A stretch of 30,171 nt of DNA from a virus, in the IMG/VR virus record IMGVR_UViG_3300047554_000608, positions 1 to 30,171 of that record; one strand, 5' to 3'. The position numbers and the translations under genes are program-made. Each line of letters starts with the position of its first letter. Within the stretch, counting starts at the first letter, position 1. The notes under the pieces are model-generated. The model was given only the letters and a program-made list of their open reading frames with translations, searched no databases and was not told the DNA's origin. Positions 3,339-8,750 of this stretch are shown piece after piece.

Positions 3339-3872
3339 TTAATTATAGTAGCGGTTACTTTTGGATATGTTATCTGAGGCTAATAAATATTGTAAATTAG
3401 AGTAGTGGTTAAGTTTGAGTAGTTCATCCTCTGTGGTAGCTTTAGAGACTGGCACGACATGATCTATGTGTAGTTTATCTTCAGGAGTAGGATAACGGCC
3501 GTAGTTTAGCCAAAAGGTGTAATCGAGATGGTTCTTAAGTAGGGGGATAGAACAACCTACTATAGTGGTAGTCTTGGAGGTCTTAGGTAGATTGTGGTTG
3601 CGGAGAGTGGTTGTAATTAGCCCCCTGATATTATCTTTAAGTTTAAATATAGAGTCAATTGCGCGTCTAGTATTCATATACTGCTTCATATACTGCTTCT
3701 TATATTTCTTCTCATACTGCCTATGACGATCAGCATTATTAAGTCGCCAACGTTTGCTATTTTGATTCTTACATGCCTTACACCGACTATACAATCCATC
3801 TTTACGACTTTTATCCCTATAAAACTCACCCACATCTTTCTCGACCTTACACTTTGTGCACACCTTAGTCAT
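3339..3872 (-). CDS. HNH homing endonuclease with N-terminal zinc finger
   Basis: A 177-aa protein. Residues 5-34 carry two Cys pairs (CTKC and CKAC), an HNH-associated zinc-binding module around FYRDKSRKDGLYSRC. A basic helix follows, then the nuclease domain with HIDHVVPVS at about 136-144, LNHYSNLQYLL at about 154-164 and DNISKSNRY near the C-terminus, an HNH/beta-beta-alpha metal signature. It is a free-standing homing-type nuclease, not inside an intron I can see. The C-terminal ~95 residues are close to identical to the HNH protein at 20298-20918 (shared KTSKTTTIVGCSI, FWLNYGRYPT, HIDH and NLQYLLASDNISK), so the two are recent paralogues. The ribosome site is AAGGATATAAG. Confidence 0.88.
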   Translation of the reverse strand: MTKVCTKCKVEKDVGEFYRDKSRKDGLYSRCKACKNQNSKRWRLNNADRHRQYEKKYKKQYMKQYMNTRRAIDSIFKLKDNIRGLITTTLRNHNLPKTSKTTTIVGCSIPLLKNHLDYTFWLNYGRYPTPEDKLHIDHVVPVSKATTEDELLKLNHYSNLQYLLASDNISKSNRYYN

Positions 3873-5037: not shown

Positions 5038-5067
5038 ACTATACCATAATGGAGGGTTAAACTTGTT
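5038..5067 (-). promoter_or_regulatory. Candidate promoter for the 121-aa virion gene
   Basis: On the minus strand, TGGTATAGT is an extended -10 (TATAGT at 5043-5038) lying 18 nt after AACAAG (5067-5062). The same 13-mer AACAAGTTTAACC occurs at 8893-8881 in front of a TATAAT box at nearly the same distance. The canonical -35 match is poor, so it may rely on the extended -10 or on a phage factor. The upstream part overlaps the last codons of the 5057-5803 gene. Confidence 0.45.
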
Positions 5068-5803
5068 CTTGAGTAGGTGTGGCTAAGGAATTGGTGAACT
5101 TGCTGCCACTGGGACTAGGTGACTTCTCTTCTTCCTTGGTGGTCTGTTGCTGTAGGGTCTGTAGTAGACTTGGAGTTAATCTCTGTACTCCTAGGAGTCT
5201 AGAGAACAGTGCGGTTTCAGCCATACCTAACTTAGCATCCTCTGGTTGCTTAGCGAACTCCTCGAACACTATCTGCTTTATTGCTTCATAGAAGCTTGGG
5301 TGCAGCAACTTCAACGTCTCTACTTGCCTTATGGTTAGGTTACCATTCAACATCAACGGTAACACTAGTGAAGGATTGATGGCTATGTTGGCTGAAGAGG
5401 TAAACTTGAACTTGTCATAGTCAGATGGTTCTAACTCTTGCAGACCGAACAGTGTCTTGGAAGTGGTGTAAGGTAGGTTGTCCTTGAGGTAGGAGTGGAC
5501 ATTGGTAGTCATGGGTGCTACATCATCTACTGGGTCACCGTAGTTGTCTATGGCTATACGTAGTCTGTCTGGGCTTATGTCATTGGGTACCTTGGACTTA
5601 AGCTCTTCATACGTATAGAAGTGTGGTAGTTCTGTAAAAGTTATGCCATCGTTTAGTAAACGAATGACTGTACTTCTAACTTTTCCTATCATATCATCGA
5701 GTCTGTCTAAGGTGATCTTTTTGGGTGAGGCACTGGATAGCTTAAGCAGGTAAGGGTATGGCACTAGTGGTGATAAAGAGTCTTCCTGGTAGTCAATAGG
5801 CAT
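5057..5803 (-). CDS. Hypothetical protein, 248 aa
   Basis: An upstream TTG (5836) would extend the ORF, but the ATG at 5803 has a well-placed AGGGGATCAACT ribosome site and is preferred, giving 248 aa. The protein is soluble and mixed alpha/beta. The middle part is helical (LPLMLNGNLTIRQVETLKLL, then LHPSFYEAIKQIVFEEFAK), and the C-terminus is a Gln/Thr/Lys/Ser-rich disordered tail (TLQQQTTKEEEKSPSPSGSK). It has no catalytic motif. It lies between the small TM protein and the probable decoration protein, so it could be a replication accessory or a minor virion or assembly protein. I do not recognise it. Confidence 0.7.
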   Translation of the reverse strand: MPIDYQEDSLSPLVPYPYLLKLSSASPKKITLDRLDDMIGKVRSTVIRLLNDGITFTELPHFYTYEELKSKVPNDISPDRLRIAIDNYGDPVDDVAPMTTNVHSYLKDNLPYTTSKTLFGLQELEPSDYDKFKFTSSANIAINPSLVLPLMLNGNLTIRQVETLKLLHPSFYEAIKQIVFEEFAKQPEDAKLGMAETALFSRLLGVQRLTPSLLQTLQQQTTKEEEKSPSPSGSKFTNSLATPTQEQV

Positions 5804-5835
5804 AGTTGATCCCCTGGGGCTAGTGTTAGGCTTCA

Positions 5836-5864
5836 ACTATAGTCATTTGGTTACCCACGGTTAA
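5836..5864 (-). promoter_or_regulatory. Candidate promoter before the 248-aa gene
   Basis: On the minus strand, TTAACC (5864-5859, 4/6 match) is followed by a 17-nt spacer and TATAGT (5841-5836), about 33 nt upstream of the preferred ATG at 5803. The AAGTTTAACC block also appears in the promoters at 5038 and 8865, although here it overlaps the last codons of the 73-aa gene. Confidence 0.35.
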
Positions 5865-6072
5865 ACTTCTTGTCCAGAGCATCCTTAAGTTCGTCAAAGG
5901 AGCAGTCAGGAGTAAGCTGGAGGTCTTGATAGCGGTGGGTGACTTTCTGGTGGTTGAAATAGTCACGCTTGAACTGTCTTAGTTCTTGTTGTGCTGCTTC
6001 AGCCTTCCTCTCATGATGGGCAATAACGAGAGTAACTAAGGTAGCTACACATATGACAGTTAGGATAGACAT
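5851..6072 (-). CDS. Small membrane-anchored protein (73 aa)
   Basis: A 73-aa protein. Residues 1-18 (MSILTVICVATLVTLVIA) form one N-terminal membrane helix, followed by a His/Arg-rich turn and a charged helical segment (ERKAEAAQQELRQFKRDYF, 21-39) of coiled-coil character. The topology resembles a short i-spanin, but it is shorter than known i-spanins and no o-spanin is embedded or adjacent. The start overlaps the stop of the RHH gene (TAATG), indicating translational coupling. The function is unknown; membrane anchoring of replication or regulation, or a lysis role, are both possible. Confidence 0.7.
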   Translation of the reverse strand: MSILTVICVATLVTLVIAHHERKAEAAQQELRQFKRDYFNHQKVTHRYQDLQLTPDCSFDELKDALDKKFNRG

Positions 6073-6242
6073 TACTTGTTCTCCTCTTGGTTAGCTTGGG
6101 ACAGCACCATCTTAGCGTAGTCGATAAGTAGGATTCTTACCACTTGGGATACGTTGAGGTCTAAGTGGCGGAGTGTAGCTACAGCATCACGTTCCTCTTG
6201 AGTATTGAGCACTATAGATAGTTGGTTTGCTTTGTGTCTCAT
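6072..6242 (-). CDS. Ribbon-helix-helix (Arc/CopG-type) DNA-binding regulator, 56 aa
   Basis: A 56-aa ORF from an ATG behind AAGGAGCAAACGTA, ending in TAATG shared with the next gene. It fits the ribbon-helix-helix fold. A short beta strand (NQLSIVLN, residues 6-13) leads into helix A (TQEERDAVATLRHL, 14-27), a turn (DLNVS, 28-32) and helix B (QVVRILLIDYAKMVL, 33-47). Proteins of this class dimerise and insert the strand pair into the DNA major groove, usually as repressors of nearby promoters. It lies just after the helicase gene and downstream of a promoter candidate at 6323-6352, which it may autoregulate. The fold is called from pattern only, with no database search. Confidence 0.72.
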   Translation of the reverse strand: MRHKANQLSIVLNTQEERDAVATLRHLDLNVSQVVRILLIDYAKMVLSQANQEENK

Positions 6243-6322
6243 TTACGTTTGCTCCTTGGTAGTTCATTCGTTGGTGTCTTTGTACTCAGGATGAGGATTG
6301 AGTTGACTTGACTGTAATTAGA

Positions 6323-6352
6323 ATTGTAAAAGTTTTGCCACAGAACAGTAAA
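6323..6352 (-). promoter_or_regulatory. Candidate promoter for the RHH regulator gene
   Basis: On the minus strand, TTTACT (6352-6347) is followed by an 18-nt spacer and TACAAT (6328-6323), within the 110-nt gap between the helicase stop and the RHH start. The match is moderate (4/6 and 5/6). The leader of about 80 nt up to the ATG shows no clear hairpin. Confidence 0.35.
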
Positions 6353-7432
6353 CTACTTGGGTGTGAGTACCTTCATGATGCTCTGTGGCATAATAACTTC
6401 ACCTTCTGCTATAGGCCGCATAATACCCTTATCATAGATAAGCTCAACTGAACCCTTGTGCTGGAAGCGTCGGTTCTTATGGATTTCATATGTAGTGATC
6501 TTAGTGTCGAAGTTAACCTTCACTTCAATGACTATGGTTGAGTAACGTAAGATGCTGCCACCCATGACCATCCTAGTATCCATCGACTTAGCACCCTTCT
6601 TCTTGTCGTCTGAGTGCATTTGAGCACACATGATGATTGGGAAGGATAGGGTGTTGAGTATGTTCTTTAGTTCTGATAAGAACTTCTCCAACTGGAAGTA
6701 GTGATTGTCGCTGGAACTAGATCCTGCCGTGTATATGTTCGTTAAGTAGTCAATCAGAACTACATCTGGCTTAACGGTGGCTTTATCTAACTTCTTAATA
6801 AGATTAAGTACATACTCAGACTTAGTGGTGCCGTTGTTTGATAACTCACAGTCCAACACAAACAACCTCTTCTCTTGAACTAGCGACTGAAACCGCTTCA
6901 TAATCCTAAGAGTCTGCTCAGGAGTTGAATGTTGGTTGGCATACTCTAGTGGATCTACGCCTTCCATCAGGCAACTTACCTTGTCATATACATCGTTAGA
7001 TGACTCTTCATTGGATATGATGAACACTCGTTTACCTTGCATTAAGTACTTATAAGCCACATTAACTACAGTAGTAGTCTTACCGGTACCAGTATAAGCA
7101 GCAACCGTAACGAGTTGACCGGGGACTAGTTTGAACTTACTGTCGAATGCTTCGCTGATGAAGGGTACTGCATCTCTGAAGGACTTATTGCGTTGGGAGT
7201 AGTCACGCTTGTAGTTGCTGTATAGTTGGGATTGTAAGGAGCTGAACATGTCGTCGCAGTACTCCTGGGTAAGAGTTGACACACTAGCGTGTTCACTCTC
7301 TAAGAACACCTCTTTTTCATAGTCGCGTTCAACCTTCTTTTGGTTGACAAAGTCCTTCTTCTTCAAGAGGTTGTCTTTCTTTTGTCCTTCCTGAAGAATG
7401 TAAGATACGGTGTCATTATCTAGCTGTGCCAT
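6353..7432 (-). CDS. DnaB-type replicative DNA helicase (RecA-fold, helicase domain only)
   Basis: A 359-aa protein from the ATG at 7432. An ATG 15 nt upstream exists, but the AAGGAG ribosome site lies between the two, so the inner start is used. Residues about 100-350 form the RecA-like SF4 helicase core. Walker A is AAYTGTGKTT at about 111-120; a loop holding ISNEES follows at about 139-144; Walker B is VVLIDYL at about 224-230; then PIIMCAQMHSD, a DnaB motif 3/H4-type segment with the sensor Gln; and finally a GGSILRYST segment. The first ~90 residues are charged and helical, and lack both the DnaB N-terminal domain signature and any TOPRIM primase motif. It should unwind the replication fork 5' to 3'. 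It overlaps the initiator gene region, forming a replication module. Confidence 0.88.
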   Translation of the reverse strand: MAQLDNDTVSYILQEGQKKDNLLKKKDFVNQKKVERDYEKEVFLESEHASVSTLTQEYCDDMFSSLQSQLYSNYKRDYSQRNKSFRDAVPFISEAFDSKFKLVPGQLVTVAAYTGTGKTTTVVNVAYKYLMQGKRVFIISNEESSNDVYDKVSCLMEGVDPLEYANQHSTPEQTLRIMKRFQSLVQEKRLFVLDCELSNNGTTKSEYVLNLIKKLDKATVKPDVVLIDYLTNIYTAGSSSSDNHYFQLEKFLSELKNILNTLSFPIIMCAQMHSDDKKKGAKSMDTRMVMGGSILRYSTIVIEVKVNFDTKITTYEIHKNRRFQHKGSVELIYDKGIMRPIAEGEVIMPQSIMKVLTPK

Positions 7433-7443
7433 TGGTTGCTCCT

Positions 7444-8448
7444 TCATGTAAACGTTGCGAATAACTCAGTTACGTCCAGATTAACAGTATCAGGATTAGA
7501 CTTAGGTAGACCAGCTTGTTGAGTTTTAGGTTTACCAATCTTGAACTGATGCTTCACTGCCACTCGCCATTGTGCTTTGACATCATCACACCAGGTTTTA
7601 TAGTCGGCACCTTTGGTATGGGGGATTACGAAGGGGAGGAGATGTTTGACTGCCGACAGAGTCTCAGACTCAGAGTATGAGTTCTGGTGGAAGGTGGCTA
7701 CAAGTGCGTCTAGGTGATCTTGTCGACCTTTTCGTGGTTTCAAGAGGTCAACATCGCCAGAGTCTGCTAGATATGCCTCTATCAGTTCAAGTTCGGTCGG
7801 GGATGGGTTAGCCAAGGGCTGGGCTACTTTCGCGCGACCTCGTGCAACCTCTGCATCAGGAGATATTGGTTGAGTTTGAGAAGCCTCAACTACACCTCCA
7901 GAGACAGTCGTTTTATCTTCCTTAATAATCTTAGGTGAACAGGAATATAGAGTGAATGTATCCTTACTATTACTATATCTTCCTTGAAAGGAGTTATTAA
8001 TAAAGGAAGGGGGAGTTATATCGACTCCCCTTCCTGTCGATGAAGAAGAAGAGTTAGTTTCTTCTGTCCCCTGAGGGGACGAGGCCTTGTCCCCTGAGGG
8101 GACGAGGGCGCCACCACCATATGTAATAACGTTCTTATCCTTAGAGACCCACTGCATGTCACCGTTGACTTCATATGTATTAGGTAGGTTGCCAATAACG
8201 GGGTGAAGGTGTTTGTGTTTAAGTACTAGTCCCTTATCAACCAGAGACTTAATGCTATCCTTGACTTTACTCTCGCTATATGAAGTAGCAACAGCGATAT
8301 AAGAATATGATAACATTTTGTTTTGACTATACTTCCAGCGAAATAATGTTGTCAATATAATGTACTCCATATGGCTAATATATTTGTCCTTCAACATATC
8401 AAAGATAATGTTGGGTATGTTAGTATATGGTGCTGTGTAGTTATCCAC
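7444..8448 (-). CDS. Replication initiator with N-terminal winged-helix domain
   Basis: A 334-aa protein starting with GTG at 8448 behind a strong AAGGAGACTGAC site. Residues about 8-95 form a winged-helix domain: YISHMEYIILTTLFRWK, then VATSYSESKVKDSIKSLVDK as the recognition region, then KGLVLKHK and the wing. A long low-complexity linker (about 105-225, Ser/Thr/Gly/Pro-rich) follows. The C-terminal part (about 225-320) is helical with HLDALVATFHQNSYSESETL and WRVAVKHQF, and might contact the helicase. The layout of DNA-binding N-terminus, linker and helicase-interacting C-terminus mirrors lambda O and phage DnaD-like initiators. The linker-encoding DNA carries palindromic repeats (see 7981-8107). 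The stop falls 12 nt before the helicase start. Confidence 0.8.
   Translation of the reverse strand: MDNYTAPYTNIPNIIFDMLKDKYISHMEYIILTTLFRWKYSQNKMLSYSYIAVATSYSESKVKDSIKSLVDKGLVLKHKHLHPVIGNLPNTYEVNGDMQWVSKDKNVITYGGGALVPSGDKASSPQGTEETNSSSSSTGRGVDITPPSFINNSFQGRYSNSKDTFTLYSCSPKIIKEDKTTVSGGVVEASQTQPISPDAEVARGRAKVAQPLANPSPTELELIEAYLADSGDVDLLKPRKGRQDHLDALVATFHQNSYSESETLSAVKHLLPFVIPHTKGADYKTWCDDVKAQWRVAVKHQFKIGKPKTQQAGLPKSNPDTVNLDVTELFATFT
7981..8107. other. Candidate replication origin with iteron-like palindromes
   Basis: Inside the initiator gene's linker region lie two identical 19-bp repeats, 8066-8084 and 8089-8107 (GTCCCCTGAGGGGACGAGG), each starting with a perfect 15-bp palindrome with 7-bp arms. 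Next to them is a longer dyad, 8004-8016 with 8024-8035 (one bulged base, 7-nt loop), and a short dyad at 7981-7992. All sit beside an AT-rich run (about 7960-8003). The 23-bp repeat period is not a multiple of 3, so the two copies are read in different frames and protein sequence cannot explain the repeat. Iterons plus an AT-rich element inside the initiator gene are the arrangement of lambda ori in gene O. The function is inferred. Confidence 0.6.
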
Positions 8449-8462
8449 GTCAGTCTCCTTGA

Positions 8463-8750
8463 CTATTCTTCATATATGTCGTTGATTATTAAGGTATATA
8501 GATCATTATGTAACGTTTTAACGTTACTATTTAAATATAAAGTTTCGCCTGTGTTAGTGATTAACAGATACTTTACAAGTAGTTGACTGTGGAAATCTGT
8601 ATCGTGAGTATGAGTGTTTCGACAGACTATGCTATCGTTGTGGTTGGCTATAGGAGTACAAGTCACTGCTGCTTCAACACCTAACCTGTCTGTCTCCTGT
8701 TGAATCAGACTGTCTATCGCTTGTCGTTGTAGAAAGTTCATCTTAACCAT
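8463..8750 (-). CDS. Hypothetical protein, 95 aa
   Basis: A 95-aa ORF starting 31 nt downstream of the structured RNA at 8781-8860, with an AAAGGATTAAACA ribosome site. The N-terminus is helical (NFLQRQAIDSLIQQETDRL). The middle has Cys27-x-Cys-poor His-rich text (VCRNTHTHDTDFH, about 42-54) that might bind a metal, and the C-terminus has beta strands (LLVKYLLITNTGETLYLN). It is the first gene of the replication operon. I recognise no family. Confidence 0.65.
   Translation of the reverse strand: MVKMNFLQRQAIDSLIQQETDRLGVEAAVTCTPIANHNDSIVCRNTHTHDTDFHSQLLVKYLLITNTGETLYLNSNVKTLHNDLYTLIINDIYEE

Follow-up and report, generated by a model that had tools for sequence, protein, structure and literature searches.

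The replication origin of phage lambda (oriLambda; NC_001416, 39034–39160) lies inside gene O, where four iterons occupy nt 350–433 in the linker-coding part of the gene and an AT-rich stretch follows 3′ in gene order. Each iteron shows hyphenated inverted symmetry, as defined in PMC6022878, and is bound by a dimer of O, and the resulting O-some stresses the AT-rich tract (PMC6022878). According to PMC7466680, which cites Dodson 1986, the smallest unit capable of unwinding in lambda is reported to consist of two iterons plus the AT-rich tract. The Stx lambdoid phages 933W and P27 also carry O-binding iterons, six of the lambda type, and an AT-rich tract in the middle of O (PMC7466680). In P22 (NC_002371), the O-like initiator gene 18, with an annotated origin from nt 353, precedes gene 12, which encodes a DnaB-like helicase.

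Here, we analysed a window of 30,171 bp, a virus record in which Pfam and PHROG identify head genes of podovirus-like type (portal, SU10-type major capsid protein, large terminase) and for which the original prediction had proposed a probable replication origin inside the initiator gene. Gene identities, repeats, their position, neighbouring unstable DNA and the match to lambda and P22 support this proposal, and we consider it very likely that positions 7910–8107 constitute the replication origin of the virus, similar to oriLambda. The lambda/P22-type arrangement is already known; the locus represents a solid new example of it with a different landing-site sequence. The phage, which is uncultivated and podovirus-like and of which the searched collections contain few relatives, thereby receives a plausible origin.

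An O-like initiator gene followed by a helicase gene

The gene at 7444–8448 (minus strand) starts with GTG preceded by AAGGAG and encodes a protein of 334 aa with an N-terminal winged helix, a linker and a C-terminal domain. The translation matches phrog_678 (1.6e-6), phrog_270 (8.5e-6) and phrog_428 (1.8e-3); the Pfam matches to HTH_36 and Phage_rep_O (0.0055 for the latter) are weak and below the cut-off. The aligned part of these matches locates the winged-helix DNA-binding domain to residues of about 8–80, encoded at 8209–8427 (minus strand). Judged by these profile matches, the product is a member of the O-like winged-helix initiator family. We also considered an iteron plasmid of the Rep_3 type and rejected it, as the initiator has no Rep_3 match in Pfam. 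AlphaFold models predicted without an alignment (pLDDT 47 and 57) were too poor and are left out of the argument.

The next gene, at 6353–7447 (minus strand), supplies the helicase: it encodes a DnaB-like replicative helicase of 364 aa that comprises the RecA-like domain only (DnaB_C 1.2e-16, phrog_19 2.8e-27), with 4 nt shared between its start and the stop of the initiator gene. Overlaps of the same length join lambda O and P (39582–39585) and P22 genes 18 and 12 (33300–33303). The gene order corresponds to that of P22, although P22 gp12 is longer (1377-nt gene), whereas in lambda the next gene encodes the loader P. An Endonuclease VII-like gene (3339–3872; phrog_1035 5.8e-22) shares strand and region with the replication genes.

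Two identical repeats in different reading frames

Within the linker-coding part of the initiator gene, two identical 20-bp repeats, TGTCCCCTGAGGGGACGAGG, are located on the minus strand at 8088–8107 (iteron 1, the first in gene order) and 8065–8084 (iteron 2), with a start-to-start distance of 23 bp. Each contains a 15-bp odd palindrome, GTCCCCTGAGGGGAC, with the hyphenated inverted symmetry GTCCCCT-N-AGGGGAC, that is, 7-bp arms around one central base. In iteron 1 the palindrome, GTCCCCTCAGGGGAC, occupies 8089–8103 and the repeat encodes VPSGD; in iteron 2 it occupies 8066–8080 and the repeat, read in another frame, encodes SPQGT. In gene orientation, the repeats begin at nt 346 and 369, with an nt span of 346–383. 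The original prediction had described two identical 19-bp repeats, each starting with a perfect 15-bp palindrome. The identity of the pair and the palindrome stand, but direct reading of the sequence gives a length of 20 bp and a palindrome that begins one base inside the repeat; the predicted 23-bp spacing within the linker-coding part agrees with the sequence.

Because 23 is not a multiple of 3, the two copies fall in different frames, so that the constraint acts on DNA and a repeated peptide is ruled out. Codon shuffling agrees with the frames, and with the earlier conclusion that the differing residues indicate selection on DNA: across 3000 protein-preserving shuffles the longest repeat reached 16 bp compared to the 20 bp observed, and the 10-mer repeat score of 14 exceeds the shuffle mean of 1.5 (p about 0.001; synonymous codons shuffled, protein constant). 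In a scan of the window allowing up to 3 mismatches, the sole other match corresponds to the same repeats read on the reverse strand, where dinucleotide shuffles expect 0.

Lambda O and P22 gene 18, put through the same script as positive controls, both yield significant in-gene repeats, most of them out of frame (p 0.002, the lowest value attainable with 500 shuffles). The original prediction had likened the locus to lambda ori inside gene O, and position, spacing, symmetry, nearby unstable DNA and the 4-nt overlap indeed match the annotated lambda and P22 origins. The iterons start at nt 346 here and at nt 350 in lambda; they are spaced by 23 bp here and by 20, 24 and 23 bp in lambda; and their copies are mostly out of frame in lambda, as in the window. 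The half-sites TCCC/GGGA are common to both, but the gap between them is 5 nt here versus 9–10 nt in lambda, and there are two iterons here versus four in lambda and six of the lambda type in 933W and P27. A close sequence relative of lambda ori, with four or more 18-bp iterons of the form TCCC-9/10-GGGA, was therefore rejected for this locus, which holds two copies of TCCC-5-GGGA. The P22 iteron sequence differs again, being of the GGTAAAAC type.

An unstable AT-rich stretch and an intervening dyad

A nearest-neighbour stability scan reveals an AT-rich, thermodynamically unstable stretch at 7910–8003, a candidate DNA-unwinding element, in agreement with the AT-rich run that had been predicted alongside the repeats. 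In stability, segments of 80–100 bp starting at 7910–7922 fall below about 99.95% of the 30-kb window and rank second or third among its distinct minima. As in lambda, the easily melted stretch lies 3′ of the iterons in gene order, and the least stable 60 bp of the gene, just 3′ of the first iterons, are found at nt 445 here, at nt 437 in lambda and at nt 410 in P22. The least stable 80–100-bp stretch of the entire window is located at 8464–8543, in the 3′ end of a small ORF (8463–8750) just upstream of the initiator start.

The AT-rich stretch is not directly adjacent to the iterons but begins about 60 bp from iteron 2. Unlike in lambda, the two elements are separated by a strong, longer imperfect dyad at 8004–8035, with GGAAGGGGGAGT-N7-ACTCCCCTTCC at 8005–8034 including one bulge, which had also been predicted and was confirmed in the sequence, by folding and in a terminator scan. 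Together with a T-rich tail, the dyad has a terminator-like score on the minus strand, and the whole 148-nt region folds at z = −6.1. The GC-skew analysis suggested with the original prediction was run on the window and adds no support for an origin: the origin-like sign is absent, as the skew is positive on the left side and negative on the right, opposite to the pattern of a usual bidirectional origin.

A sister phage with a diverged initiator

Direct searches for relatives of the initiator or the helicase returned none; single-sequence patterns were too strict. Among the structural relatives (L106–L131) no initiator or helicase match was obtained. Motif-focused alignments of the terminase and of the helicase did retrieve relatives. 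The sister phage G535 (29,194 bp) has matches to 20 of the 30 window genes compared, with identities of 74% for the major capsid protein, 60% for the portal, 54% for the terminase and 52% for the helicase. Its initiator matches the same PHROG families, yet can barely be aligned with that of the window (24% over 70 aa, E 0.055).

The linker of the G535 initiator (nt 360–405) contains GGGGGCATCA in two out-of-frame copies at a distance of 20 bp, as well as one TGATACCC. The original prediction had suggested a check for conserved repeats in relatives despite a variable linker protein; the repeat of G535 is not significant, codon shuffling giving p values of 0.07 to 0.85 depending on the test. G535 by itself does not confirm the window origin. 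Given a different, weak repeat in an initiator whose surroundings otherwise align, origin specificity seems to change quickly on the sequence comparison. The initiator is the most diverged gene in G535 while its neighbours can still be aligned, which fits a replaceable initiator–origin specificity. The replication module of G535 (initiator, helicase and the homologue of 5057–5836) is inverted relative to the tail genes, the two being on opposite strands there (L284/L286) and on the same strand in the window (5057–8448).

In-gene repeats are a family-wide property of O-like initiators

HTH_36 was tried as a route to bacterial initiators and discarded. Its matches are mostly GntR-type regulators and other unrelated proteins, and the PHROG initiator families were therefore used for a survey. 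The sample comprised initiators matching phrog_270 or phrog_678 in whole genomes from two phylum-level samples, and a gene was scored positive when it contained in-gene DNA repeats beyond synonymous shuffling at p<0.02. Such repeats are present in 36 of 55 O-like initiator ORFs compared to 3 of 56 flanking control ORFs (Fisher p 6e-12). Repeat clusters typically set in 30–50% into the ORF, likewise in the window gene. With the window included, out-of-frame or inverted pairs predominate in 21 of 37 genes and in-frame pairs in 16, where peptide repeats may contribute. The repeat sequence differs gene by gene, and a general CCC/GGG enrichment in initiator iterons is not supported (Wilcoxon p 0.40).

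In-gene DNA repeats at the linker position are thus a family-wide property of O-like initiators, as statistical repeats and putative origins. These genes ordinarily carry DNA repeats in the part that encodes their own linker, which is hence no lambdoid peculiarity, and a simple codon-shuffle test allows for sequence-based origin predictions in many prophages and uncultivated phages. One initiator of the phrog_270 sample (L194) carries CCAGTCCC four times in a row (CCAGTCCCCAGTCCCCAGTCCCCAGTCCCC) within the gene.

Proposed mechanism and alternative explanations

From the observed repeats, their out-of-frame constraint, the gene identities and order, the position and the low stability, we infer the following course of initiation. 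The N-terminal winged helix of the initiator would bind each 15-bp palindrome as a dimer at two TCCCC half-sites, and the two bound iterons would form a small O-some on the stretch of the gene encoding the initiator's own linker, which is disordered. Strain from this O-some would open the neighbouring AT-rich stretch at 7910–8003, and the C-terminal part of the initiator would deliver the phage's own DnaB-like helicase, encoded by the next gene, to the opened DNA, where replication would start. The hand-over is modelled on P22 gp18 and gp12, which are thought to act in this way. Weak points that count against an origin are (i) the presence of two iterons only, (ii) the distance of ~60 bp to the AT-rich stretch, with the dyad in between, (iii) the sign of the GC skew and (iv) the sister phage, with a different initiator and a non-significant linker repeat.

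The palindromes could instead be operator sites at which the initiator or another regulator controls the initiator–helicase operon, the origin being elsewhere. Palindromic sites for dimers are characteristic of operators, autoregulation is common among iteron proteins, and promoter-like matches are present in the initiator gene. However, these matches are near the shuffled expectation (6 versus 3.9 ± 2.0), the sites lie 340 nt into the gene and not at a promoter, and the family-wide linker position together with the nearby unstable stretch suits an origin better, which makes operators an unlikely explanation. We rate it lower still that the repeats represent a REP- or MITE-like palindrome dispersed in the host, which would have inserted where the linker tolerated it. 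No further copy exists within the window, the same core occurs in tandem in unrelated initiator linkers, and most O-like initiators carry repeats of their own at the same spot, even though GTCCCC-N3-GGGGAC palindromes do form dispersed or tandem families in several bacterial genomes.

Slightly less credible again is an action at the RNA level, with palindromes and dyad forming hairpins, an attenuator or a terminator in the initiator mRNA. The strong fold and the terminator-like dyad with its T-rich tail would suit such a role, but terminator-like sites occur at the shuffled expectation (1 versus 0.7), hairpins require neither exact identity of the copies including their flanks nor the 23-bp phasing, and DNA origins, too, contain inverted repeats. 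That the pair arose by chance or reflects a repeated peptide encoded in the linker has a negligible probability: GTCCCC and GGGGAC can encode P, S, G, T and D, residues in which disordered linkers abound, but the frame shift between the copies and codon shuffles that never exceed 16 bp already refute it.

The same palindrome in other genomes

Alongside the family-wide in-gene repeats, the recurrence of one palindrome across unrelated initiators, the less expected finding, is worth following as a second point beyond the origin itself. The exact 15-mer occurs in 16 viral stretches, judged by reading to represent about 10 independent loci. Two of these (L008 and L018) have it in the linkers of winged-helix initiators and a third (L011) immediately ahead of an initiator's winged helix; three of ten loci in initiators have a probability of 0.0009, assuming that initiators make up 2% of phage DNA. 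A tandem scan of the whole viral collection with GGGGACN{4,30}GTCCCCTNAGGGGAC retrieved only two stretches, L008 and L018, both initiators. A looser tandem pattern matched 49 stretches in viral contigs, and among the matches listed most look like GC-rich chance. The phage and plasmid collections gave no clear tandem match, and the open literature searched yielded no occurrence of the literal motif.

In bacterial genomes, close versions are present in two genes of bacterial elements (L049 and L028), apparently in winged-helix linkers, an assignment made by eye from the sequence and without a PHROG or Pfam match; many other tandem matches there belong to unrelated repeat families. The IMG/VR initiators L018 and L008 and the bacterial-element genes L049 and L028 thus have in common with the window a tandem palindrome, identical or almost identical in sequence, within a winged-helix linker, while their proteins cannot be aligned with the window initiator outside the winged-helix family and their genomes and spacings differ.

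It is possible, albeit doubtful, that winged-helix initiators from unrelated phages and integrated elements (the window, L018, L008, L049, L028 and perhaps L011, L248 and L264) have GTCCCC-N3-GGGGAC as a recurrent iteron, of which the lambda TCCC/GGGA would be a wider-spaced form. In that case, a preferred half-site would be common to O-like winged helices and their specificity would vary mainly through spacing; the same site, again self-encoded, may serve a DNA translocase that has a winged helix of its own (L021). The lambda half-site is similar, but a general CCC/GGG preference is unsupported, and a shared half-site specificity would therefore be a lead and not a result.

Contigs of Burkholderia and other proteobacteria (L033, L045, L047, L064 and L084) contain arrays with a 27-bp period, e.g. 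GTCCCCTTGGGGGACGCCCCGAAGGAA, in up to six consecutive copies, which form an unrelated family of tandem palindromic repeats. The translocase gene in L021 (10964–11002) encodes an FtsK-like protein (phrog_24831) with an apparent C-terminal winged helix and carries GTCCCCTGCGGGGAC twice, 24 bp apart, in the preceding linker, which may be a recognition site encoded by the gene itself, comparable to the clt/TRS sites of actinobacterial plasmids.
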